DNA of 32,927 nucleotides, taken from positions 1-32,927 of the forward strand of contig JAJCZZ010000009.1 in the NCBI GenBank assembly GCA_029262115.1, written 5' to 3'. The notes under the pieces were generated by a model. The model was given only the letters and a program-made list of their open reading frames with translations, was not told the DNA's origin and made no database searches. A program made the translations under genes and the position numbers. Below are positions 2,375-27,953 of this stretch, piece after piece. Position 1 is the first letter of the stretch, and each line of letters opens with the position of its first letter. The stretch is from Gemmatimonadota bacterium (GTDB lineage: Bacteria > Gemmatimonadota > Gemmatimonadetes > Longimicrobiales > Gaopeijiaceae).

Positions 2375-2923
2375 GTGGACATTGTGAAGCGGCTCGGGCT
2401 GATGACCGCGTTGTTCGCGGTTGTGGTCGTACCCATCCGGGCGCAGACAGGGGGGCCGGACGGCCTCTACTATGCCGCGGTCGCAGAGTTCTTCGAGCTC
2501 CCCGCGAGCGAGGTGGACATCCTCCGCGACTGGCGGCTCCCGGTCGACGAGATTCCTGTGGTGTTGTTCGTGTCTCGCCGTGCCGGGGTCTCCGCGGAGG
2601 CCCTTGCCCAGCTCCGCCGTGCTGGGAAGCAGTGGCCGGAACTCGTGACGCAGTATGGTCTGGACGCCGGCCAACTGCATCTCCCCATCGCGGACGTGTC
2701 GCGTGCGTACGCTCTCGCTGCTCTCTATCAGCAGTACGACTCGCTCGAACCGAGACGTTGGCGTGAGGTCAAGCTCACCGACCAGGACGTCGTCGTACTG
2801 GTGAATGTACGCATGGCCGCTCAGACGCTCCGCATGAGTCCTGAGGACATCCTGGAGGGCCACCGGACGACGCCGTCGTTCGTTGCCCTCTACGCACGGC
2901 TCGTCCCTCTCCGGAAGCCGTGA
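2375..2923 (+). CDS. Secreted two-repeat helical protein of unknown function
   Basis: I do not recognise a named family. The GTG at 2375 follows GGGAGG by 6 nt. The first 24 residues form a signal peptide: charged start, a hydrophobic run [13 protein letters not shown], and cleavage near RAQT. The mature part of about 158 residues contains two similar segments of about 37 residues. The first begins at [20 protein letters not shown] and the second at [20 protein letters not shown]. Both continue to an aromatic residue near 'QWPELV' or 'SFVAL' and have an Arg in the middle. The product is probably periplasmic and all-helical. The TGA overlaps the GTG of the nitroreductase, so the two are co-expressed. 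An upstream extension to 1760 is antisense to the STAS-like gene and was not used. Confidence 0.75.
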
Positions 2924-3591
2924 CCGGACCCCGCTATGTCCCGCTCTCGTCCTACAGAGAGTATCCAGAAGACGAGATGAAGCGGCGCGCCGAGGATTTT
3001 TATGCCGAACTCCGCCGGCGCAGAACCGTGCGGGACTTCTCGGACCGACCGGTGCCACGAGAAGTCATCGAGTCCTGCCTGCTCGCCGCCGGTACGGCGC
3101 CCAATGGTGCCAATCGGCAGCCGTGGCGCTTCGTCGTGGTTGGCGACCCAGCACTCAAGGCGCGTATCCGAGAGGCGGCCGAAGAGGAGGAACGTGCCTT
3201 CTACAGCGGTCGCGCACCCAAGGAATGGATCGAGGCGCTCGCGCACCTCGGCACCGACGAGAACAAGCTGTTCCTGGAGCGGGCACCCTGGCTGATCGCG
3301 ATCTTCGCGGAAAGTTGGGAGCCAACTGCCGAGGGTGGTAAGGCCAAGAACTACTACGTCAGTGAGTCCGTCGGAATCGCGACGGGCATGCTCATCACGG
3401 CCCTCCATCACTCGGGGCTGGCCACGCTGACACACACGCCCTCTCCCATGAAGTTCTTGAACGACGTGCTCGACCGACCGGACAACGAACGTGCGTTTCT
3501 CGTGCTGGTGGTCGGATATCCCGACGAGAACGCGACCGTCCCGGACATCACCAAGAAACCTCTCGATCAGATCGCCCACTTCATCGAGTGA
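2920..3591 (+). CDS. Nitroreductase family, iodotyrosine deiodinase-like flavoprotein
   Basis: FMN-dependent reductase of 223 residues. The FMN phosphate site is visible in [10 protein letters not shown] (about 32-41). It is followed by [16 protein letters not shown] (59-74) and, late in the protein, [14 protein letters not shown] and KKPLDQI, the last two being typical of iodotyrosine deiodinase (IYD). In IYD a lid closes over the halotyrosine using Glu, Tyr and Lys. Here Glu91, Tyr95 and Lys116 have the same spacing as in human IYD (4 and 21 residues). The predicted reaction is reductive removal of halogen from a halotyrosine or related phenol. The substrate is not proven, since nitroreductases vary. 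The GTG overlaps the preceding TGA, and the full IYD-like N-terminus ([14 protein letters not shown]) supports this start. Confidence 0.85.
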
Positions 3592-3665
3592 GAGTAGTGG
3601 GGAGAAGGCCCGGCGCTTAGACTAGGGTGGTGTTACGAAGGTTCGCGAGCCACCGAGAGGAATGC

Positions 3666-5582
3666 ATGGGCCAAGACGTTTCAGGCGAGCGCACCGGTCC
3701 CGATGCCGTTCGGGCTTTCACGAAGGCCCTGCTACGAGACCTCCAGGCCCTCGAGCACATGCTGTCCCACGGCATGATCGAGTCGGGTGTCCGCCGTATC
3801 GGTGCTGAGCAGGAGATGTTCCTGGTCAACCCCGGCTGGCGGGTGGCTCCCGTGTCCTTGGAGGTGCTGGAGGGATTGGAAGGCCCCTTTACCACCGAAC
3901 TCGGGCTCTTCAATCTCGAAGCGAATGTCGAGCCGAGGCTTCTGAGCGACCGGTGCTTTTCCGATCTCGAGGCGCGGCTCGACGAACTGGTCGGGCAGGT
4001 GCGTTTCCGGGCGCGGGAATTGGACGCGGACGTGGCCCTGGTCGGCATTCTTCCGACGCTCAGCAAGTCCGACCTGTCCCTGGACAACATCACGCCGAAG
4101 GCTCGCTACTACGCGCTCAACGATGCTCTGTCACAGATGCGGGGCGGAGAGCCGTACAAGCTTCGCATCGAGGGCTCGGACGAACTGTATATCGAGCATG
4201 ACTCGGTGATGTTGGAAGCCTGCAACACCAGCCTGCAGGTGCATCTCCAGGTAGAGGCGGATGAGTTCGCCCACCTTTACAACGTCGCGCAGTTGATCAC
4301 GGGGCCGGTCCTTTCGGCCGCGGTCAACTCGCCGGTCCTTTTTTCGAAACGACTCTGGGATGAGACGCGGATCGCTCTCTTCCAGCAGTCGGTCGACACA
4401 CGATCGGCGACCGTCCACATGAGAGAACTGGCGCCTCGGGTGCGCTTCGGTGACCAGTGGGTCCGTGAATCGGTGACGGAGTTGTTTCAGGAGGATGTGG
4501 CCCGGTTTCGCGTGCTACTCACGTCCAAGATCGACGAGGATCCCAACGCGGTCCTGGCCGAAGGCGGTATCCCCGAGTTGCAGGCACTGCAGCTACACAA
4601 CTCCACGATCTATCGGTGGAATCGACCTTGCTATGGGGTGGGTGGAGGAAAGCCGCACCTCAGGATCGAGTGCCGGGTGCTGCCGTCCGGGCCGTCGATT
4701 GTCGACGAGGTCGCCAATGCCGCGTTCTGGATCGGCGCGGTCATGGGTGCCGCCGCCGAGTTTCCGGACCTGACCGAGCGGATCGAGTTCGACGAGGTGA
4801 AGGCGAACTTTTTGTCCGCGTCACGCCAGGGGCTGAAGGCGGGGTTCCACTGGCTGGACGGTGAGGCGGTCTCCGCGCGCCGGTTGATTCTCGACACGTT
4901 GCTACCTCTCGCGGAGAACGGGTTGTCGGCGGCGGGCGTCGACTCCGGCGACGTCGACCGGTACCTGGGCCTGATCCGGGAGCGCGTCGAGTCTGGAACG
5001 ACGGGTACCCAATGGATGATGCGCTCGATCGCGGCCATGAAGGGGCAGGGGAGCCGGGAGGAGCGGCTCGCGGCGGTGACGGCGGCGACCGTCAACCGGC
5101 AGCGGGTGGGAACGCCGGTCCACACCTGGAAACTCGCCGAGATCGACGAGGCAGGCGGGTGGCGGCTCAACTACCTTCGGGTCGAGCAGTACATGACGAC
5201 CTCGCTCTTCACGGTGCACGAGGATGAATCCGTGGAGATGGTGGCGTTCCTGATGGATCGTCGGCAGATCCGCCATGTCCTGGTCGAGGACGGCAAGCAC
5301 CGACTGGTGGGCATCGTGTCCTATCGCTCGTTGATCCGCTTGATGGCGGACAGCGTGAATCGGAAGGCGGAAGACGCCCCACCCGTCAAGATGATCATGG
5401 AGCGCGACCCCATCTCCGTCGCTCCGGAGACACCCACGCTCGACGCCATCGATCTCATGCGTCGACACAAGGTCTCGTGTCTGCCGGTGGTGAACGGCGG
5501 TAAGCTGGTGGGTATCGTGACCGAACGGGACTTCATGCCGATCGCGTACGAGCTACTCGAAGACCGTTTGAGGGAGGCGTAG
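3666..5582 (+). CDS. GCS2-type carboxylate-amine ligase fused to two CBS domains
   Basis: Protein of 638 residues. Residues about 15-480 resemble the glutamate-cysteine ligase family 2 (GCS2) fold: RRIGAEQEMFLV, ELGLFNLEANVEP, IEHDSVMLEACNTSLQVHLQ and HLRIECRVLPSGPS carry the acidic metal- and nucleotide-binding residues expected. GCS2 enzymes use ATP to form an amide bond between a carboxylate and an amine. Two CBS domains follow, at about 502-560 and 575-632. CBS pairs usually sense adenosine nucleotides, so the ligase may be energy-regulated. Real glutathione synthesis is not implied, because no glutathione synthetase is seen. The ATG at 3666 has GAGAGG 6 nt upstream. The next gene is a likely amide hydrolase. 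Confidence 0.8.
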   Translation: MGQDVSGERTGPDAVRAFTKALLRDLQALEHMLSHGMIESGVRRIGAEQEMFLVNPGWRVAPVSLEVLEGLEGPFTTELGLFNLEANVEPRLLSDRCFSDLEARLDELVGQVRFRARELDADVALVGILPTLSKSDLSLDNITPKARYYALNDALSQMRGGEPYKLRIEGSDELYIEHDSVMLEACNTSLQVHLQVEADEFAHLYNVAQLITGPVLSAAVNSPVLFSKRLWDETRIALFQQSVDTRSATVHMRELAPRVRFGDQWVRESVTELFQEDVARFRVLLTSKIDEDPNAVLAEGGIPELQALQLHNSTIYRWNRPCYGVGGGKPHLRIECRVLPSGPSIVDEVANAAFWIGAVMGAAAEFPDLTERIEFDEVKANFLSASRQGLKAGFHWLDGEAVSARRLILDTLLPLAENGLSAAGVDSGDVDRYLGLIRERVESGTTGTQWMMRSIAAMKGQGSREERLAAVTAATVNRQRVGTPVHTWKLAEIDEAGGWRLNYLRVEQYMTTSLFTVHEDESVEMVAFLMDRRQIRHVLVEDGKHRLVGIVSYRSLIRLMADSVNRKAEDAPPVKMIMERDPISVAPETPTLDAIDLMRRHKVSCLPVVNGGKLVGIVTERDFMPIAYELLEDRLREA

Positions 5583-5587
5583 GCACC

Positions 5588-6733
5588 ATTCGGGCGGAGC
5601 GAATCATCGGGAGCGTCCACGGCCATCGGCCGGGCCCTACCCTCATCTGCATCGCGGGCCTCCACGGCAACGAGACCGCCGCCGTCGAGGTTCTTCCCGA
5701 AGTCCTCGAAGAGCTGGCGAAGCACGCGCCGGACATGTGTGGCGACTTCATCGCGTTGGCGGGAAATCAACGCGCGCTGGAGCTCGGTCAGCGCTTCGTC
5801 GATCGCGATCTGAACCGTGCCTGGACGGAGGAGCGGCTTGAGCGGCTCCTGTCGGGAGACCCTGGCGACTTCTTGGCGGAGGACCACGAGCAGGTCGAAC
5901 TTCTAAACGCGATCGAGGAGGCCAGGCGGGCCGCGAGAGGGTCGGTATATCTGCTCGACCTCCACACGACATCAGGCGAAGGCGGCCCGTTCACCACGTT
6001 CGGCGACACGCTCGCGAATCGTGAATTCGCGTCCACCATTCCCGTGCCCATGATCCTCGGGCTCGAGGAGCTCGTCGACGGGACGCTTCTGTCGTACTTC
6101 GGCGAGCGCGGATGGGTGGCCGTGGTTTTCGAGAGCGGGCAGCACGACGAGCCCACGGCGCGCGATCGGGCGGCCGCGGCGATCTGGGTGTTCGTGGCCG
6201 CGGCCGGCCTCGTGCCGCACGCTGACATGCCCCAGGCCGCCGAGGGGTGGAAGCTTCTCAACGGAGAGACGCGACGGCTGCCCCGTGTTCTGGAGATGCG
6301 GTACCGGCACCCTGTGGACATGGTCGATGGGTTCACGATGTCGCCCGGCTATCTGAACTTCCAGAAGGTCGAGGAGGGTGAGGTCGTCGCCCGGGACGTT
6401 CGCGGCGTCGTCCGTGTGCCCGAAGCGTCACGGATCCTCATGCCGCTCTACCAGGTTCAGGGAGAGGACGGGTTCTTCCTCGTCCGGGAATTCCGTCCGT
6501 TCTGGCTCTGGATGTCCGGCGCTCTGCGGACGCTTCGGGTCGACCGGGTGGCCCACCTGCTCCCGGGAGTGGCGCGGGACCCGAACGACCCGCACGCCGT
6601 GGTGGTCGACCGGCGGGTGGCTCGTTGGTACGCGCTCCAGCTCTTCCACCTGCTCGGATTCCGGAAGCTGGAGGATGAGGGAGGCCTCCTGGTGCTGCGC
6701 AGGCGCGCGCTGGAGGGTGGCCGGGAGGCCTGA
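5588..6733 (+). CDS. AstE/AspA-type zinc deacylase (aspartoacylase family), non-canonical start
   Basis: M14-like metallo-hydrolase of about 381 residues, related to succinylglutamate desuccinylase and aspartoacylase, which cut N-acyl amino acids. The zinc site appears as GLHGNE (His26, Glu29) and LDLHTTSG. A later [11 protein letters not shown] probably holds the catalytic Glu. GNQRA matches the family's 'NP/QRA' element. The zinc motif starts about 20 residues after position 5588, but the first ATG in this frame is 5735, beyond the motif. From the in-frame TAA at 5501 onward there is no ATG, GTG or TTG before the conserved region. ATT at 5588, 10 nt after AGGGAGG, is the best start. The C-terminal third (about 220 residues) is longer than in minimal relatives and unassigned. 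Confidence 0.75.
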
Positions 6734-8019: not shown

Positions 8020-9510
8020 TCAGTTCGCGCGGACGGCTCGCCCGACCGCCCACGACCGCATGGCGTCGATCTTCTCCGCCATGGTGACGGACAGCGGCCT
8101 GGTCGCCGCCACTTCGCTCAGGAGGACGCTGTCGTCCACCTCCACGCCGGCGGCGAAGGCAGTATAGAGTCCCGACACGACCACTTGCTCCACCTCGGAC
8201 CCGCTGAAGCCGTCTGTCGCGCGGGCCAGCGACGCCAGGTCGAAACCGGAAACGTCCTTGCCCCTCCCGGTGAGGTGGATCCGGAAGACCTCGGCTCGCG
8301 TGCGGGAGTCCGGGAGGTCCACGAAGAAGATCTCCTCGAAGCGACCCTTTCTGAGGAACTCCGGCGGCAGGCTCTGGATGTCGTTGGCCGTGGCCACCAC
8401 GAACACGTCGCCGCGCCGGTCCTGCATCCACGAAAGGAAGGAGCCGAGGATGCGCTGGCTGACCCCTCCGTCGTCTCCGCCTCCGGACGCGAACGCCTTT
8501 TCCAGTTCGTCGATCCACAATACTACCGGTGCCATCCGTTCCGCCGCGGCCATGGCGCGCTTGAAGTTGGACTCGCTCTCGCCGATGAACTTGTTGTACA
8601 GATTCGACGGATCCAGCTTGAGCAGAGGGAGCCCCCATTCATTCGCCACGGCTTTCGCACACAGACTCTTCCCGCAGCCGGGGACGCCGAGGAGCAGCAT
8701 CCCCTTGGGGAACTCGAGCCCGAAGTCGCGGGCGCGGTCGGGCGCCTCCACTACCGCCTTCCGTTTGCGGAGCCAGTCCTTGAGCGTGGCCAGGTCGGCC
8801 ACCTCCGCCATGGCTGTCTCCACCGGGTAGTACTCCAGCAGGCCGTCCCGCTCCACGATCCTGCGCTTCGCGTCCACGACGTGGCGGATGTCGTCGGGTC
8901 CGAGCGTCGCGTCCTCGACGATGGCCTTCGTGAGGATCTTCTCCGCCTCCATCAGCGTCAGCCCGGAGAGATGCCCGACGAGCACGCTCACGTCTTCCTT
9001 TCTGAGCGTGACCCGGATGTCCTGGCGTGCGGACAGATCGCGGACGATACGCTCCAGCAGTTGACGGAACTCGCGGTCCGAGGGGCCGGGTAGCGTCACA
9101 TGGGCGGTGACTTCCCGCAGGACGGGAGGAAGCGCGTCGGTGGTTCCGGTCAGTACGACAGCACCGCGAACGTCGCGCATGAGTGCGGCGGCGTCCCGGA
9201 TATGGGCGTTGAGCAAGTCCTTCTGAGGAAGGCTCCCGACCAACCCCTGAACATGATAGACGCCTTCCAGGGGGGAGGCCCCGATGTGGCGAAACGCCTT
9301 CACGGGCTCCGACGTATCGTAGATCCCGTCCTCCGCGTTCCCGCGACGAATACCCTGCGAGCGTGTCCAGGTGAAGAACGGGACCCGGAGACGCGAGGCC
9401 ACATACCGAAGGAGCGCGTTGGCTCGCTCCTCCTCCGGCGTGTCGAGCCAGATCAGGCCGTGCCGCGCCCGGATCAGGAGCTCGAGATCACGAATCGCGT
9501 CGTGCGGCAT
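8020..9510 (-). CDS. Ycf46-like AAA+ ATPase
   Basis: Protein of 496 residues. The C-terminal AAA+ module has Walker A GVPGCGKS (275-282), Walker B VVLWIDELEKAF (329-340), sensor-1 Asn in VVATANDIQ (371-379) and arginines at FLRKGRFEE for the finger. The N-terminal 240 residues start with LLIRARHGLIWLDTPEEERA and include VVLTGTTDALPPVL, a degenerate ATPase-like half without a P-loop. This architecture matches Ycf46, a conserved AAA protein of cyanobacteria, plastids and many bacteria that has been linked to photosynthetic or CO2 regulation in cyanobacteria. Its role here is unknown. It starts 4 nt after the MscS gene on the same strand, suggesting a joint job. Confidence 0.85.
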   Translation of the reverse strand: MPHDAIRDLELLIRARHGLIWLDTPEEERANALLRYVASRLRVPFFTWTRSQGIRRGNAEDGIYDTSEPVKAFRHIGASPLEGVYHVQGLVGSLPQKDLLNAHIRDAAALMRDVRGAVVLTGTTDALPPVLREVTAHVTLPGPSDREFRQLLERIVRDLSARQDIRVTLRKEDVSVLVGHLSGLTLMEAEKILTKAIVEDATLGPDDIRHVVDAKRRIVERDGLLEYYPVETAMAEVADLATLKDWLRKRKAVVEAPDRARDFGLEFPKGMLLLGVPGCGKSLCAKAVANEWGLPLLKLDPSNLYNKFIGESESNFKRAMAAAERMAPVVLWIDELEKAFASGGGDDGGVSQRILGSFLSWMQDRRGDVFVVATANDIQSLPPEFLRKGRFEEIFFVDLPDSRTRAEVFRIHLTGRGKDVSGFDLASLARATDGFSGSEVEQVVVSGLYTAFAAGVEVDDSVLLSEVAATRPLSVTMAEKIDAMRSWAVGRAVRAN

Positions 9511-9514
9511 CGAG

Positions 9515-10399
9515 TCAGGACGCCCGCGAAACGTTCGCGATCGATTCCTCGATCGGTGGGGCCAGATGGATGTCGAGTTGCGGGAACGCGATCACGATTT
9601 CCGCATTCTGCAGTGCCCACCAGACCTCCTCGTGGAGGTCCGATGACACCATCGGGGCGGTCCACGGATCAGCCGTCCAGACGGAAACCTCATAGTTGAC
9701 CGACGAGTCGCCGAAGCCCAGGAGTTGGACCACGGGATCTCGGAGACTCTTCCACGACTCGGCATTCACGACGCCTTCCAGGATCTGGCGTACCTGCGCC
9801 AGGTCGGAGCTGTATGTGACACCGACGGGCACCCTGATCCGGAAGTGGGAGTCGGACATCGTGTAGTTCTTCACCGTGCCCTGCGCGAGCACGGTATTCG
9901 GGATGATGAGTTGTTCGTCGTCTCGGGTCCGCGCGACCGTGGCGCGGATTCCCATCTTTTCGACCCGGACCACACGTCCCTCGACCTCGAGGATATCCAT
10001 CGGCTTGATCGACCGCTCGAACAGGAGGATCAGCCCCGACAGGAAGTTCTGCGCGACGTTCTGGAACGCGAACGAGATTCCGACCGCGAACACGGCACCC
10101 GCGGCGAACAAAGCTCCGAGGTTGATGCCGATGTTGGTGATCGCGGTGGCGAATCCGACCCCGAGGACCACGAAGGTGATCAGCTTGGTCGTGATGGCGC
10201 GTGTGCCTGAATCGTCGATGCCCCGCCGATCCATGGCGCGATTCGCGCTTTTCTCGAGGAGGCGGGACGCCATCACCGTGAGGAGGATGATCAGCGCGAA
10301 CGTCAGAATGCTGATCAAGGTGATCGGCGTTCCAAATATGGCCGTCAGTTCCGTATTGAGAATCTGATCGAGCAGAGACGTGAGTTCCTGGAAGGTCAT
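9515..10399 (-). CDS. MscS-family mechanosensitive channel
   Basis: Protein of 294 residues in the inner membrane. Three helices are visible: ITLISILTFALIILLTVMA, LITFVVLGVGFATAI, and the pore helix in LGALFAAGAVFAVGISFAF continuing as QNVAQNFLSGLILLFERSI. A beta domain follows (DILEVEGRVVRVEKMGIRAT, IIPNTVLAQGTVKNYT), then the C-terminal alpha/beta domain. The length is normal for small MscS channels, which release solutes on hypo-osmotic shock. The ATG at 10399 has GGAG 9 nt upstream and gives a usual N-terminus; the ATG at 10459 would add 20 Pro/Gly-rich residues. It is the first gene of a two-gene unit with the AAA ATPase and diverges from the ECF sigma gene. Confidence 0.92.
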   Translation of the reverse strand: MTFQELTSLLDQILNTELTAIFGTPITLISILTFALIILLTVMASRLLEKSANRAMDRRGIDDSGTRAITTKLITFVVLGVGFATAITNIGINLGALFAAGAVFAVGISFAFQNVAQNFLSGLILLFERSIKPMDILEVEGRVVRVEKMGIRATVARTRDDEQLIIPNTVLAQGTVKNYTMSDSHFRIRVPVGVTYSSDLAQVRQILEGVVNAESWKSLRDPVVQLLGFGDSSVNYEVSVWTADPWTAPMVSSDLHEEVWWALQNAEIVIAFPQLDIHLAPPIEESIANVSRAS

Positions 10400-10570
10400 G
10401 GGAGTTGCTCCGGGGAAGTCGAGGGGCCCGCGGTCGCCAACCTGCCGAGGCGGGGGCACGGCTGTCCAGCCGCCTGGCCGGTAGACCCCGGCGATTCGTG
10501 CGTTGTAGCCTTGGACACCCGGTAGGTGGCGCCGTCGCCGCCTCGAGGGGGGGAGCGCCAGGAGGGTGCG

Positions 10571-21520: not shown

Positions 21521-22359
21521 TGGAACTCGAGCAGCTTCTCGCACGCACGCTGGCGTTCGCCGACGACGGAGAGTGGGAGGCGGCCGCGGACCTCCTGAGA
21601 GATCACCTCGACACCCTGGACGAGGAGCCGGCCGTGCACTGCTGGCTCGGAGTGGCGGAGCGGGAGCTCGGCCTGGAGGGGATCGCCTACGAGCGCTTCA
21701 AACGCGCGCTATCGCTCGACCCGGAGGACCCGTACGTCCTGGCCATGGCGGGGTCCGGTATCGCGGCGTTCGACGATCCGGAGGCCGAGGCCGCTCTACG
21801 AACTGCTGCCCTGACCGCACCGGAGCTGCCTCTGGCACGGATGCTCTACGGGGCCTACCTCGCCCGGGAGGGCTTTCCCGAGCGAGCGGTCGAGCAACTC
21901 CAGGCGGCGCGCGCGCTCGACTCCGACGATCCCCAGACCGCCTACGAGCTCGGTGTGGCGCATTTCTTCGCGGGCGATCTCGACGCGGCAACCGACGCGG
22001 TCGGTGATGCCGTTGCTCTGGATCCCACGGACGCCTGGCACCGGGTCGCGTTCGGCCTCCTGCTCGTGGAGGGGGAGCGGTGGGAGGAGGCGGCGGGAGA
22101 ACTCGCCGAAGGCGCCCGACTGAGCCCTGAGGACGTCGAGGCACAGTTGACCGCGGCGCTCGCCGCCGCGGGGGTGGGCCAGCTCGATACCGCGTACGAG
22201 ATGGTCGAGCGGGCACGGGTTCGTTCGGACGAGCCCGATCAGGCGCTGCTTCTCCGGGTCGAGGATCGAATCGATGGGGACGCGGAAGAGATTCGACGGT
22301 TCCTGGTGGATGAGGTGGCATCCGGGGCGCTGCGCGTTCGCATGATGGAGCGTCCGTGA
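21520..22359 (+). CDS. TPR-repeat protein
   Basis: Soluble protein of 279 residues made almost entirely of helical tetratricopeptide-like pairs. Examples are HCWLGVAERELGLEGIAYER, PQTAYELGVAHFFAGDLDAA and WHRVAFGLLLVEGERWEEAA, each followed by an 'ALSLDPEDP'-type turn (ALSLDPEDP, ARALDSDDP, AVALDPTDA, GARLSPEDV). The composition is very acidic. It has no signal peptide or membrane helix, so it is likely a cytoplasmic scaffold. No partner is known; position between gpmI and four M16 proteins, with overlapping stops and starts, suggests co-expression with them. Function unassigned. Confidence 0.85.
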   Translation: MELEQLLARTLAFADDGEWEAAADLLRDHLDTLDEEPAVHCWLGVAERELGLEGIAYERFKRALSLDPEDPYVLAMAGSGIAAFDDPEAEAALRTAALTAPELPLARMLYGAYLAREGFPERAVEQLQAARALDSDDPQTAYELGVAHFFAGDLDAATDAVGDAVALDPTDAWHRVAFGLLLVEGERWEEAAGELAEGARLSPEDVEAQLTAALAAAGVGQLDTAYEMVERARVRSDEPDQALLLRVEDRIDGDAEEIRRFLVDEVASGALRVRMMERP

Positions 22360-23789
22360 GGCGGGGCCGGACCAGGGCATCGTTCCGGCAGGCCATGGTC
22401 GTCACGGTCGCGCACGCCCTCACGGGCGGCGCAGCGTCACCGTTGGACGCTCAGCAAGGAGATCAGGTGGAGGTCCACATACCGTATACGCAACACACGC
22501 TCCCCAACGGGCTTACGGTTCTCGTGCATCGTGACCCGTCGATTCCGGTGGTCAGTGTGAACCTCTGGTACCATGTGGGCTCGAAGAACGAGGTTCCGGG
22601 CCGGACCGGCTTCGCCCACCTGTTCGAGCACCTGATGTTCGAGGGTTCGGCCCATGTGCCGGAGGGCGAGTTCGACACCCGGTTGGAGGCGGTGGGCGGA
22701 GTCAACAACGGGTCGACCACCAACGATCGGACGAACTACTGGGAGACCGTGCCATCCAACGCCCTCGAATTGGCGATCTGGTTGGAGGCGGACCGGATGG
22801 GCTACCTCCTCGAGACGATGACGCAGGAGAAGCTCGACATCCAACGAGACGTCGTGAAGAACGAGCGGCGTCAGGGCGTGGACAACCAGCCCTATGGCCG
22901 GGCCTTCGAAACGGTGTACGCGCACCTCTATCCGGACGGGCACCCGTACCAGTGGCCGGTGATCGGCTCAATGGACGACCTCAGCACGGCCACGCTCGAC
23001 GACGTCAAGGAGTTCTTCCGCACGTACTATGCGCCGAACAACGCGAGCATCGCGGTGGCGGGAGATGTGCGCGAGCGCACCGTCATCCGCCTCGTCGAGA
23101 AGTACTTCGGAGATATCCCCGCGGGGCCCCCCGTGCCCGAAGTCGTCGCTCCGGACGTATCGCTCGCCACCGACGACGTGGTCGTGCTCGAGGACGCGGT
23201 TCCGCTCCCCCGTTTGTACGCGGCCTGGCACTCGGCTCCGGAGTTCAGCGAGGACGACGCGGTCATGGAGGTGCTCGGCGCCATCCTGACGGACGGGAAG
23301 GCGTCGCGCCTTCACCGCCGGCTGGTATTCGACGACCAGATCGCCCAGGATGTCGGGTCGTTCCAGAACTCTCAGCAGCTTGCGGGCTCGTTCTGGCTCG
23401 TCGCGACCGCGCGACCGGACGTGGCCCTGGGACAGATCGAGGGCGTGGTCCGTGAAGAGATCGGTCGGGTCGCGCGCGAAGGCGTGGAGCCACGAGAGGT
23501 CGAGCGCGCCGTCAACGGAATCCAGGCCGACTTCGTCCGATCGCTCCAGCGGGTCGGTGGCTTCGGGGGCAAGGCGGACCGGCTGAACGAATACCAGATG
23601 ATGACGGGCGACCCCGGCTTCGTCCGGAGGGACCTCGCGCGGTATCGACGCGTGACGCCCGCCGCGGTGCAGGACGCCGCACGCCGTTTTCTCGACGGCC
23701 GTCCGGCGGTCTGGCTGAGCGTGGTGCCGGAGGGCCGTCCGGAGTTGGCCACGGGCACCCCTCCGATCGGGGAGGGAGACACTCCATGA
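22356..23789 (+). CDS. M16 zinc peptidase, catalytic subunit, exported
   Basis: Protein of 477 residues. HLFEH (88-92) is the inverted zinc motif HxxEH of M16 peptidases, and the third ligand is Glu170 (VVKNERRQG), 78 residues after the second His. An N-terminal hydrophobic segment (MVVTVAHALTGGAASPLDAQ) looks like a signal peptide, so periplasmic location is expected. In the C-terminal half the region SRLHRRLVFDDQIAQDVGSF lacks the Tyr of the R/Y pair used for substrate binding, which its neighbour supplies. This fits the split M16B heterodimer. The GTG at 22356 overlaps the TPR stop, and the stop overlaps the next ATG. Confidence 0.93.
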   Translation: MRRGRTRASFRQAMVVTVAHALTGGAASPLDAQQGDQVEVHIPYTQHTLPNGLTVLVHRDPSIPVVSVNLWYHVGSKNEVPGRTGFAHLFEHLMFEGSAHVPEGEFDTRLEAVGGVNNGSTTNDRTNYWETVPSNALELAIWLEADRMGYLLETMTQEKLDIQRDVVKNERRQGVDNQPYGRAFETVYAHLYPDGHPYQWPVIGSMDDLSTATLDDVKEFFRTYYAPNNASIAVAGDVRERTVIRLVEKYFGDIPAGPPVPEVVAPDVSLATDDVVVLEDAVPLPRLYAAWHSAPEFSEDDAVMEVLGAILTDGKASRLHRRLVFDDQIAQDVGSFQNSQQLAGSFWLVATARPDVALGQIEGVVREEIGRVAREGVEPREVERAVNGIQADFVRSLQRVGGFGGKADRLNEYQMMTGDPGFVRRDLARYRRVTPAAVQDAARRFLDGRPAVWLSVVPEGRPELATGTPPIGEGDTP

Positions 23790-25312
23790 ACAGGGGCGCG
23801 GTCGTGACGATCATGAGCTGGGCTGCGGTGTCGCTGACCGGGTGCGCCTTCGGCGTCGCCGTGTCGTCGGACAGCGGGGATGGCGAGGGGGGGAGCGTCA
23901 CGGTCGGGCCGGGTGCGACCGGCGGTACGCCGTCGGGTTCGGCATCGCCCCTGGACCGGACGGTGGCGCCGTCCGTGGGACCGCCTCCGTCGCTGGCCCC
24001 CCCCGAAGCGGCCGACTACACGTTGGACAACGGCCTTCGCGTGATCCTGGTCGAGCGGCACACGCTGCCGCTCGTGAGCATGGCTCTTCAATTCAACGGC
24101 GGTGCGGCCGCCCACCCCGCGAGCCAGGCCGGGCTCGCGGGCTTTACGGCCGACATGCTGGACGAAGGCACCGCCACCCGCTCGGCACTCGAAATCTCGG
24201 AGGAACTCGACTTCCTGGGGGCCGAGCTTTCGACCTCGGCCGGCTACGACGTCAGCGTGGTGCGCCTGAACGCGCTCGAGCCCCAGCTTGACGAGGCCAT
24301 GGCCGTACTTGGAGACCTGGTCATGAATCCGAAGTTCGCCGAGGCCGATCTCGAGCGCGTCCGCCGCGAGCGCCTCGGCCGGATCCTCCAGCGCAGCGCG
24401 CAGCCCGCGGCGCTGGCGGACGACGCCTTCCTCGAAGTCCTCTACGGCCAGGATCACCCGTACGGAGCGCCCCTGATGGGCTCCTCCGGGACCTTATCCG
24501 CCCTGACCCGAGAGGACGTCGTCACCTTCCACCGGGAACGGTACGCGCCTGGCCAAGCGACGCTGGTGGTGGTCGGCGACATCGACCGGGAGGAGTTCGA
24601 CAGCCTGGTGTCGAGTGTGTTCGACGGATGGGAGGGTGAAGGAGTGGCACCCCCTCCGCTCGCTCAGCCCGACGGCCATCGGGACGGCCGCGTGGTCTTC
24701 CTGGTCGACCGCCCAGGGTCCGCGCAGAGCGAGGTCCGCGTGGGCCGCGTCGGACTCGCGCGCTCCACCGACCGCTACGTGCCCACCCAGGTGGCGAACA
24801 CGGTGCTGGGTGGGTCCTTCACGAGCCGCCTCAACAGCAACCTGCGCGAGGACAAGGGATACACGTACGGGGCCGGCTCCTTCTTCGACCTTCGCCGTGA
24901 GCCCGGGCCCTTCGAAGCCACCGCATCGGTCGCCACGCCGAGCACGGCGGAGTCGGTGGTCGAGTTCCTCGCCGAGTTGGATCGGATGGGACGGGAGCAG
25001 GTGCCCGCGGATGAACTGGAGCGCGCGCGCAACTTCATCGCGCTGCGCCTCCCACAGCGGTTCGAGACGATCGACGACGTGGTGGCGCGGCTGGCCGAGC
25101 TCGCCGTCCATGATGTTCCGTTGGACTTCTACGCCGGCTACGTGGAGGACGTGATCGGAGTCGGCGGTGACGAAGTCCAGCGGGTGGGCACCGATCTGAT
25201 GGATCCCGAGGGAATGGTCATCGTCATCGCCGGAGACGTGTCCGTCATCGAAGCGCCCCTTCGTGCCCTGGGCATCGGGCCCGTCCACATCCTTTCCGCA
25301 GGACAGCCGTGA
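23786..25312 (+). CDS. M16 family non-catalytic subunit, lipoprotein
   Basis: Protein of 508 residues. The N-terminus MSWAAVSLTGC gives a lipobox with Cys at about residue 20, followed by a Gly/Ser/Pro-rich linker of about 50 residues, so it should be membrane-anchored outside the cytoplasm. The M16 domain starts at YTLDNGLRVILVERHTLPLV. The position of HxxEH reads GLAGFTADMLDEG, so the zinc site is lost. The C-terminal half has SRLNSNLREDKGYTYGAG, which keeps the Arg and Tyr that bind the substrate peptide. It should complete the active site of the protein encoded just upstream. The 4-nt overlap with both neighbours supports this pairing. Confidence 0.92.
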   Translation: MNRGAVVTIMSWAAVSLTGCAFGVAVSSDSGDGEGGSVTVGPGATGGTPSGSASPLDRTVAPSVGPPPSLAPPEAADYTLDNGLRVILVERHTLPLVSMALQFNGGAAAHPASQAGLAGFTADMLDEGTATRSALEISEELDFLGAELSTSAGYDVSVVRLNALEPQLDEAMAVLGDLVMNPKFAEADLERVRRERLGRILQRSAQPAALADDAFLEVLYGQDHPYGAPLMGSSGTLSALTREDVVTFHRERYAPGQATLVVVGDIDREEFDSLVSSVFDGWEGEGVAPPPLAQPDGHRDGRVVFLVDRPGSAQSEVRVGRVGLARSTDRYVPTQVANTVLGGSFTSRLNSNLREDKGYTYGAGSFFDLRREPGPFEATASVATPSTAESVVEFLAELDRMGREQVPADELERARNFIALRLPQRFETIDDVVARLAELAVHDVPLDFYAGYVEDVIGVGGDEVQRVGTDLMDPEGMVIVIAGDVSVIEAPLRALGIGPVHILSAGQP

Positions 25313-26586
25313 AGCGTCTCGACATTCCCTCCGAGCGACATCGCCTCGACAACGGCCTCAGGGTCGTGCTCTCCCACGATGACACGGTTCCGGTCGTTGC
25401 GGTCAACCTGTGGTATGGGGTGGGCTCCCGGAACGAACAGCCGGGAAAGACCGGATTCGCCCATCTCTTCGAGCACATGATGTTCCAGGGATCGGAGCAT
25501 GTACCCAAGAATCGCCACTTCGAGCTCATCGAACGGGCGGGGGGCGCGTCCAACGCCACTACCTGGTTCGACCGCACGAACTACTTCGAGACCGTTCCTT
25601 CCCACCACCTCGACCTCGCCCTCTGGCTCGAGGCGGACCGGATGGGGTGGATGGTCCCGGCCATGACGCAAGAAAAGCTGGACAACCAGCGCGACGTCGT
25701 GAAGAACGAGAAGAGGCAGCGGTACGACAACCAGCCGTACGGTGACTGGGACGAGCGGCTGCAGAAGCTCCTGTGGCCCGAAGATCATCCGTACCATCAC
25801 ACGGTCATCGGTTCGATGGAGGACCTCGACGCCGCGAGCCTCGACGACGTGGCGTCCTTTTTCGAGACGTTCTATCGCCCGAGCAACGCGGTTTTGACGA
25901 TCGCGGGCGAATTCACCCGAGCCTCGGTGCTCGAGAAGGTGGACCGGTGGTTCGGGGATATTGCCCAGGGCGATGCCATACCGCCGATCCCGGGCCGGTC
26001 GGAGGTCCCGCCGTTGATTGGGTCCACCATGCGCGATCGGGTGGTGGCGGACGTGCCCCTCCCTCGGGTCATTGTCGCGTACAGGATTCCGCCCTATTCC
26101 TCGGACGACTTCGCGGTCGTGGAAGTGGCACGAGCGGTCCTCGGCGCTGGTCGTGCCTCCAGGCTGTACCGGCGCCTCGTTCGTGAGCAACGTGTGGCGA
26201 ACGACGTGGTGAGCTATGCGTTTCCGCTCATGAGCGGAGCGTCCATGCTGCTCGTATGGGCTACGGGCTTTCCCGGCTCTGATGAAGCGGCCTTGGAAGA
26301 GGCGCTTACACGCGGGGTATCGGACCTGGCCGATGTCGAGATGTCGGAGGTCGAGCGGGCCATTGCCCTGACCGAGACCGACGTGGTCCGCTCGCTTGAA
26401 ACGGTTGCCCACCGAGCCGACGTGCTGTCGATGCTCGAACTCCACTTCGCCGATCCCGCTCGGATCAATCGTGAAGTGGATCGTCTACGCGCGGTCACGG
26501 TCGAGCAAATTCGGTCGTTCGCGTCGGAGCACTTCGGTCCGGACAATCGAGCGGTCCTGACGTATGTCCCGGAGGACGGATCATGA
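25309..26586 (+). CDS. M16 zinc peptidase, catalytic subunit, no signal peptide
   Basis: Protein of 425 residues. HLFEH (52-56) and Glu134 form the zinc site with the same spacing as in the exported paralogue upstream. The sequence starts directly with LDIPSERHRLDNGLRVVLSH, with no hydrophobic leader, so it probably acts in the cytoplasm, or is exported with help I cannot see. TGFAHLFEHMMFQGSEHVP and EADRMGWMVPAMTQEKLDNQ are close to the paralogue. The C-terminal half (SRLYRRLVREQRVANDVVSY) lacks the substrate Tyr in its usual context. GTG at 25309 overlaps the preceding stop by 4 nt. Probably arose with the upstream pair by duplication. Confidence 0.93.
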   Translation: MKRLDIPSERHRLDNGLRVVLSHDDTVPVVAVNLWYGVGSRNEQPGKTGFAHLFEHMMFQGSEHVPKNRHFELIERAGGASNATTWFDRTNYFETVPSHHLDLALWLEADRMGWMVPAMTQEKLDNQRDVVKNEKRQRYDNQPYGDWDERLQKLLWPEDHPYHHTVIGSMEDLDAASLDDVASFFETFYRPSNAVLTIAGEFTRASVLEKVDRWFGDIAQGDAIPPIPGRSEVPPLIGSTMRDRVVADVPLPRVIVAYRIPPYSSDDFAVVEVARAVLGAGRASRLYRRLVREQRVANDVVSYAFPLMSGASMLLVWATGFPGSDEAALEEALTRGVSDLADVEMSEVERAIALTETDVVRSLETVAHRADVLSMLELHFADPARINREVDRLRAVTVEQIRSFASEHFGPDNRAVLTYVPEDGS

Positions 26587-27953
26587 GCGTCGATCGCAGC
26601 CGGGCGCCAAAGCCGGGCCGGATTCGTCCCTTTGACTTCCCGGACGTCGATCGTCGACGGCTCGACAACGGGGCGGATCTCCACATCGCTCGTATGGGCC
26701 GATTGCCGGTCGTCAGCGTGAACCTCTTCATGCGTGCTGGCGAAGCCGCGCTGGACGCCGAGCATGCCGGCCTCGCCGTGCTTACGGGTGACACGCTCGA
26801 GGGCGGAACGCGTCGAAGGTCCGGGACAGAGCTGGCCGACGCCCTGGAGCGCATCGGAGCCCGGCTGAACGTCTCCACCGGTTGGGAGGGGACGAGCGTG
26901 TCGCTCTCTTGCCTCGCCGAGCGTCTGGACGAGGGGTTGGCGCTTCTGGCCGAGGCAGTTGTCGAGCCGGCATTTCCCGAGGCGGAGGTCGAGCGCGCCC
27001 GCGCTCAGCAGGTCGCCGACATCCGGCAACGGTCGATGGACCCCGCGTCCATCGCCTCGGACGAGGCCGCACGGCGCTACTTCGCCGAGGGCGTCCCTTA
27101 CGCTCGCCCGCAGGTCGGTATGTCGGACGTGGTGGAGTCGTTCAACCGGAACCACCTGGTCGGCTATGCCGACGCTACCTGGCGGCCTGAGACCGGTGGG
27201 GTCGTCGTGGTCGGAGATGTGGACGAGGATGAGATAGAGTCCACGGTCGCCGGCCATTTCGGAGGTTGGACCGGTCGACCGGCGCTCAGTCAGGACTTCG
27301 ACGTGACGCCACGCGCGGTGGAGCGCCGGATCTGGATCGTCGACCGCCCCGGAGCGGTCCAATCGGAGATCCGGGTGGGGCACGTCGGGACCTCGCGCAC
27401 CGATCCACGGGTGCCCGCCCTCACCGTGCTGAATACACTGTTCGGAGGCGCGTTCACCAGCCGGCTGAATCTGAATCTGCGGGAGGAGCACGGCTTCACG
27501 TACGGGGTTCGCTCCCGGTTCGGGCTACGTGGAAAGCCCGGTCCGTTCCAGGTCGGCACCTCGGTCGGTACGGACGTGACCGCTCCGGCGCTCGAGCAGA
27601 TCGTCATCGAGTTGGAGAAGCTGGTGGAAGCCGGGGTGCGCGAGGACGAAGTGGCGGCGGCGCGGGACTATATCGCCGGCGTCTTTCCGCTACGCATGGA
27701 GACCGTGGGCCAGGTTGCGGGTCGGCTCACCGAGTCGGTCATCTACGGTCTGCCCGACGACTACCACGCGACGTACAGGGAGCGGATCCGGGCCGTGACG
27801 GTTGCGGACGCCGAGGATGTGGCGGCTGTGCACATTCGTCCGTCCGAGGCGCAGATCGTGATCGTGGGTGATGCCACGGCCATCCGTGCGCCGGTGGAGG
27901 CGTTGGGGATCGCCGACGTGCATCGGGTCGCCCCCGTGGGGAGTGAAGCATGA
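26583..27953 (+). CDS. M16 family non-catalytic subunit, no signal peptide
   Basis: Protein of 456 residues. The domain begins at RRRLDNGADLHIARMGRLPV. The HxxEH position reads GLAVLTGDTLEGG, so it has no zinc site. SRLNLNLREEHGFTYGVRSR in the C-terminal half keeps the Arg/Tyr substrate-binding pair. This is the same arrangement as the lipoprotein paralogue, but here there is no lipobox or signal peptide. It should pair with the catalytic subunit just upstream. The ATG overlaps the preceding stop, and its own stop overlaps the Nudix ATG (ATGA at 27950-27953). Confidence 0.92.
   Translation: MSVDRSRAPKPGRIRPFDFPDVDRRRLDNGADLHIARMGRLPVVSVNLFMRAGEAALDAEHAGLAVLTGDTLEGGTRRRSGTELADALERIGARLNVSTGWEGTSVSLSCLAERLDEGLALLAEAVVEPAFPEAEVERARAQQVADIRQRSMDPASIASDEAARRYFAEGVPYARPQVGMSDVVESFNRNHLVGYADATWRPETGGVVVVGDVDEDEIESTVAGHFGGWTGRPALSQDFDVTPRAVERRIWIVDRPGAVQSEIRVGHVGTSRTDPRVPALTVLNTLFGGAFTSRLNLNLREEHGFTYGVRSRFGLRGKPGPFQVGTSVGTDVTAPALEQIVIELEKLVEAGVREDEVAAARDYIAGVFPLRMETVGQVAGRLTESVIYGLPDDYHATYRERIRAVTVADAEDVAAVHIRPSEAQIVIVGDATAIRAPVEALGIADVHRVAPVGSEA

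Follow-up and report, generated by a model that had tools for sequence, protein, structure and literature searches.

Enzymes of the carboxylate-amine/ammonia ligase superfamily activate a carboxylate by phosphorylation, in the usual case that at the gamma position of glutamate, with subsequent transfer to an amine (PMC2588565), and AstE/AspA-type enzymes hydrolyse amino-acid amides, including beta-aspartyl isopeptides and dipeptides, as exemplified by CphZ (PMC10206079). The genes for making and breaking such a product may be clustered, as is the case for cyanophycin synthetase and cyanophycinase in 81% of genomes (PMC10206079). In the AcuABC system the CBS adaptor AcuB controls the deacetylase AcuC by energy charge, which is reported by the AcuB CBS pair (PMC13121692).

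The window analyzed here (32,927 nt) is one entire contig (C9) of a Gemmatimonadota genome of 5.45 Mb. It contains a gene for a putatively CBS-regulated carboxylate-amine ligase with the GS fold (GCS2/YbdK-like, 638 aa; 3666..5582) and, directly downstream on the same strand, a gene for an AstE/AspA-family zinc amidohydrolase (381 aa; 5588..6733); features are on the + strand unless otherwise indicated. Members of the two enzyme families are as a rule called "glutamate-cysteine ligase" and "succinylglutamate desuccinylase", respectively. The ligase open frame extends from 3627 to 5582, and the ATG start at 3666 agrees with the alignment of 16 relatives; the alternative GTG start at 3627 was discarded, being without support from the relatives. 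In the hydrolase frame no ATG, GTG or TTG was found between 5504 and 5735. Since the HGNE zinc motif lies within this stretch, translation must begin upstream of 5735, and a start at 5735 would result in loss of the zinc ligands. The likeliest predicted start is the AUU codon at 5588, which follows GAGGGAGG at a distance of about 11 nt; alternatively, the missing standard start may be due to a sequencing error there.

When the window ligase was compared with Pfam, GCS2 was absent even at E = 10. Among its relatives, PF04107 (GCS2, curated cut-off 21 bits) was matched by 38 out of 40 at E ≤ 0.01, with a score of 25 bits for the Nannocystis protein, and the CBS domain was matched by all 40. Profile-profile comparison by HHalign with the YbdK relatives gave a match of 97.1% with an E value of 5e-11; global HHalign with single E. 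coli sequences was unsuccessful, and PDB sequence searches with the ligase, singly or as a profile, returned nothing real. The AlphaFold2 model of the ligase (pLDDT 91) matched the folds of YbdK (Z 39), plant glutamate-cysteine ligase (Z 33) and yeast GCL (Z 29), and superposition on YbdK and GCL showed a GS-like fold spanning residues 24–480; Dop and PafA were matched at Z about 21–22. The GCS2 membership of the window ligase is thus based on the PF04107 matches of its relatives, the YbdK profile match and the fold taken together, and agrees with the original prediction, made from the DNA letters and open reading frames, of a GCS2-type ligase carrying two C-terminal CBS domains.

Residue conservation was determined in an alignment of 40 ligases, with the superfamily motifs as previously defined (PMC2588565). 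The GhExE metal/ATP motif of strand 1 (G46-A-E48-Q-E50; 3801..3815) and the acidic metal ligands E78 and E85 of core strands 2 and 3 (3897..3920) are invariant in the 40 sequences. The same is true for Q191-x-H193 of core strand 4 (4236..4244), aligned with HVH of YbdK and equivalent to the [HQ]x[NH] motif ([HDQ]x[NH] in the superfamily test), for R235 (4368..4370), aligned with the active-site loop arginine of YbdK, and for E335-x-R337 of core strand 6 (4668..4676), the equivalent of ExR in the YbdK alignment. Within the longer Ex[RK]x2D motif of strand 6 the x2D position is occupied by Pro in 39 ligases and by Gly in the other one. The window ligase shares with the YbdK/GCS2 (PF04107) ligases, including plant-type glutamate-cysteine ligase and EgtA, the GS fold across the catalytic part and all of GhExE, the acidic ligands, QxH, ExR and the loop arginine, but differs from them in the fused CBS pair, the frequent hydrolase partner and the Pro at x2D after ExR. 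As compared with YbdK, it contains insertions of about 20 and 65 residues and shows only about 15% identity in the fold alignment.

The tandem CBS (Bateman) domain covers residues 500–636 (5163..5573), with two PF00571 copies (102 bits), and this segment of the AlphaFold2 model superposes on AcuB, its closest solved match, with Z 20. In the alignment of the 40 ligases the [TS]xx[DN] nucleotide motif of the second CBS is kept in about 35. The usual Asp is absent from the first CBS, and for this reason binding of adenine nucleotides by the pair is not certain; the pair is a probable energy sensor. The CBS pair is of the same type in AcuABC and in the window module, and in both it would be coupled to reversible acylation; AcuB is a separate protein acting on protein lysine acetylation, whereas the window CBS pair is part of the ligase.

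The hydrolase scored 54.4 bits against PF24827 (cut-off 25), a match that covers the first 108 of 192 positions, and its AlphaFold2 model (pLDDT 93.5) matched the folds of EutE/DoeB (Z 23), AstE (Z 22), AspA (Z 20) and the isopeptide hydrolase CphZ (Z 19). In an alignment of 29 hydrolases, H26, E29, R69, N76, R77, H126 and E182 were present in all the sequences. These residues belong to the zinc ligands H26-G-N-E29 (5663..5674), aligned with HGNE of AstE, the amino-acid carboxylate binding motif of AstE/AspA, R69...D74-x-N76-R77 (5792..5818), aligned with RYIDCDLNR of AspA, the third zinc ligand H126 (5963..5965), corresponding to DLHT of AstE, and the catalytic glutamate position E182 (6131..6133). 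The fold, the HGNE...H zinc site, the RxxxxDLNR substrate motif and the catalytic Glu are the same as in AstE, AspA and DoeB (EutE), and an AstE/AspA-type enzyme directly after the ligase was confirmed. The window hydrolase differs from these enzymes in a PLYQxxGxDGFF motif of its own and in an extra C-terminal segment (residues 316–381; 6533..6730), which occurs only in the long form of the hydrolase. The NCBIfam equivalog/subfamily cut-offs for succinylglutamate desuccinylase and aspartoacylase were missed (51, 45 and 44 bits versus 170, 306 and 180, respectively), and with scores so far under the curated cut-offs neither the desuccinylase nor the aspartoacylase function is transferable to this protein.

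The neighbourhood of the two genes was surveyed in a sample of 200 genomes of the phylum, of which 49 contained the CBS-type ligase and 49 the hydrolase. Both genes were found in 41 of the 49 ligase genomes, side by side in 38 and separated in three (Fisher p 1.7e-26, a value that overstates independence because the species are related); the hydrolase without the ligase was found in seven genomes of one genus and in one other. Since the close hydrolase is present in one copy per genome and yet lies directly downstream of the ligase in those 38 genomes, the adjacency is far from chance. Outside this sample the best 80 GTDB loci from other species were used, 72 of which had enough downstream sequence to be informative; many genomes in the surveys are incomplete. 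The hydrolase was next to the ligase in 34 of these 72 loci, belonging to at least nine phyla, with gaps typically of 20–80 nt and mostly below 100 nt, and the remaining neighbours varied. The phyla with the adjacent pair include Planctomycetota, Balneolota, Gemmatimonadota, Myxococcota, Bacteroidota, Calditrichota, Acidobacteriota, Krumholzibacteriota and Chlorobiota; a Pseudomonadota contig with the pair (L041) looks misbinned and groups with the window's own family. The survey proposed with the original prediction thus revealed a conserved neighbourhood, and the pair is a distinct, widespread two-gene module. As the pair travels together across at least nine phyla, both genes very probably serve one shared small-molecule (or tagging) pathway. 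No promoter or terminator delimiting a ligase/hydrolase operon was found; the two genes are best read as an operon-like module that belongs to one pathway and has been maintained for a long time.

Outside the phylum, no hydrolase adjoins the ligase in about half of the relatives. Among the 31 genomes lacking adjacency, a close hydrolase was located elsewhere in nine, and no hydrolase match at all was obtained in 21, many of them incomplete MAGs. Because ligase-only and hydrolase-only genomes both exist, neither gene strictly needs the other. Adjacency is clustered on the ligase tree, yet it requires at the fewest 20 changes, at least nine of them forced by supported branches, which is what an ancient pair would show that has many times been separated or lost, or else has many times been regained. 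Within the phylum, the open frames of five distant relatives (about 510–540 aa) leave no room for CBS, and their genomes are devoid of the hydrolase; an adjacent hydrolase is also missing in three actinobacterial relatives, of which two are annotated at about 500 aa. In Balneolota the gene order is ligase, ligase, hydrolase, as seen in loci L072, L077 and L084, where two tandem CBS ligases precede one hydrolase; both ligases are intact, to judge from the catalytic residues of those copies that were part of the alignment, and they possibly form a heterodimer or catalyze two steps. In L121 and L122 (genus g52) the ligase-less hydrolase is beside an ORF with a resemblance, judged by eye, to pterin-4a-carbinolamine dehydratase. 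Several other candidates were rejected. Ligase-hydrolase fusions, suggested by long open frames in high-GC loci, were discarded, the hydrolase being always a separate frame after the ligase stop; gamma-glutamyltranspeptidase (L052 and L100) and M28 peptidase (L091 and L096) as replacement hydrolases beside the ligase were found in too few cases, and a FadD-like CoA ligase adjoining the ligase is limited to one gammaproteobacterial clade.

In the window's own bacterial family the conserved string is longer and consists of a small, probably exported protein (2411..2923, start not fixed; syntenic in the same family), a nitroreductase-family flavoprotein directly upstream of the ligase (2920..3591; Pfam match, syntenic in most of the own-family genomes and in this family only), the ligase and the hydrolase. 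The first two genes had been missed in the original prediction. Synteny outside the family led to rejection of the nitroreductase as a member of the core module, and among ORFs of at least 80 aa no conserved cluster was found there apart from the hydrolase. The earlier statement that no standard pathway is found nearby holds. In E. coli, nfsB is three genes from ybdK, possibly by coincidence.

The best single reading of the locus, to which we assign close to an even chance, is an energy-gated two-gene module that makes and breaks a gamma-glutamyl-type amide. The ligase would use ATP to phosphorylate a carboxylate, which by analogy with its fold relatives is most likely that at the gamma position of glutamate, and would join it to an amine; the CBS pair would bind adenine nucleotides and set the ligase activity by energy charge; and the zinc hydrolase would split into its parts the amide so formed, or else an N-acyl amino acid closely linked to it in the pathway. 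The net effect would be formation of the amide when ATP is plentiful and its recovery when ATP is scarce. The folds, the preserved catalytic residues, the fused CBS pair and the conserved adjacency were established by computation, and this reading is preferred since the superfamily chemistry, the cleavage reactions of AstE/AspA-type enzymes, the clustering of the cyanophycin genes and the AcuB precedent together point to it. Of the make-and-break system put forward originally, the enzyme classes, the CBS sensor and the conserved functional link are supported, whereas glutamate as the acyl donor, nucleotide sensing itself, the direction of control and the action of both enzymes on the same bond are what we infer. 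More speculatively, and rather doubtfully in this specific form, the product may be an undescribed gamma-glutamyl isopeptide metabolite (a store, an osmolyte or a signal) of many unrelated phyla, built by the energy-gated GS-fold ligase and dismantled by the adjacent dedicated AstE/AspA-type isopeptide hydrolase.

The main rival is a sequential pathway without breakdown, in which the hydrolase would deacylate (acetyl, succinyl or formyl) a precursor or late intermediate and the ligase would form a different amide, both being biosynthetic for one modified amino acid or peptide. It fits the data almost as well, in that the closest solved relatives of the hydrolase (AstE, AspA and DoeB/EutE) have N-acyl amino acids as substrates, the RDLNR carboxylate-binding motif is preserved, and the hydrolase is present alone in some genomes; however, no acyltransferase is found among the conserved neighbours and, outside the phylum, one half of the ligase loci lack a nearby hydrolase, and we regard this pathway as possible though somewhat unlikely. 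A reversible tagging of proteins or peptides, like pupylation by PafA/Dop of the same superfamily or polyglutamylation by RimK, with the ligase adding and the hydrolase removing the tag, could be suggested by the fold matches to Dop and PafA and by the occurrence in the same genome of RimK with AstE/AspA and retropepsin genes. Dop and PafA are, however, much more distant from the ligase than YbdK and GCL, and no conserved small modifier gene was seen between or beside the pair (ORFs of at least 80 aa surveyed; gaps mostly <100 nt); tagging appears improbable.

In the original prediction, an ordinary gamma-glutamylcysteine synthetase was named as an outcome that would refute it. The corresponding explanation, with the ligase serving thiol metabolism and the hydrolase as an incidental neighbour, is consistent with the GCS2/GS-fold relationship, with the NCBI label of distant relatives ("glutamate-cysteine ligase family protein") and with the lack of any other GCS2 gene in 29 of the 49 CBS-ligase genomes, in view of which gamma-glutamylcysteine may still be used. 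Against it, the window genome does have another GCS2 gene, all 49 genomes with the CBS ligase contain the bacillithiol synthase BshC (195/200 overall), and strong GshB-domain matches occur in only six of the 49, the weak match in the window genome being RimK. The two insertions (about 20 and 65 residues) that set the ligase apart from YbdK and an adjacency too conserved for an incidental neighbour also disagree with this explanation, which appears improbable; from the gene content of these genomes, the ligase probably does not participate in ordinary glutathione chemistry.

The ligase/hydrolase pair has counterparts in the same genome. On contig C31 (L181), genes for a retropepsin-like protease, RimK and another AstE/AspA enzyme are found in succession, and on C27 (L147) those for an RLAN-RimK (ATP-grasp) ligase, a GCS2 ligase and an N-formylglutamate amidohydrolase. 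As in the window, in the former cluster a glutamate-adding amide ligase adjoins an AstE/AspA enzyme, but the ligase is of the unrelated ATP-grasp fold, no CBS sensor is present and there is an extra protease. In the latter, a GCS2-type ligase adjoins an amidohydrolase as in the window, but there is a second, ATP-grasp ligase, the amidohydrolase belongs to another family and CBS is absent. Because the two clusters share this theme, the pairing of an amide ligase with an amidohydrolase is a recurrent arrangement. The window pair adds another version, in which the ligase carries a fused, probable energy sensor. The cyanophycin system, with cyanophycin synthetase and cyanophycinase/CphZ, is similar in the clustering of make and break genes and in CphZ being an AstE/AspA-type isopeptide hydrolase, and differs in that its ligase is of the ATP-grasp/Mur type and its product is a polymer. 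In a literature search that did not extend to a 2009 survey of amidoligase neighbourhoods, no description of the CBS-ligase/hydrolase pair was found.

Once the product is identified, a metabolic gap would be closed simultaneously in Planctomycetota, Gemmatimonadota, Myxococcota, Balneolota and Bacteroidota, and a direct gating of amide-ligase chemistry by CBS domains would be put to the test. Cultured carriers include Nannocystis exedens DSM 71 and Rhodohalobacter sulfatireducens.

Other genes of the window include one for a RES-domain protein (PF08808; 923-1636, +), preceded by an ORF (436-939) for which no Pfam match was obtained; in RES/Xre toxin-antitoxin pairs the RES-domain protein is the toxin. 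A run of four M16-family peptidase genes, overlapping at their ends, is located at 22356-27953 (+), and at least two M16 genes are kept beside the same NUDIX and sigma-factor genes in L042 and L043. An AAA ATPase gene (8020-9510, −) adjoins an MscS-type channel gene (9515-10459, −), both being syntenic in L133 with 51–54% identity, and in L134 the AAA gene is found after the ligase cassette and an HD response regulator.
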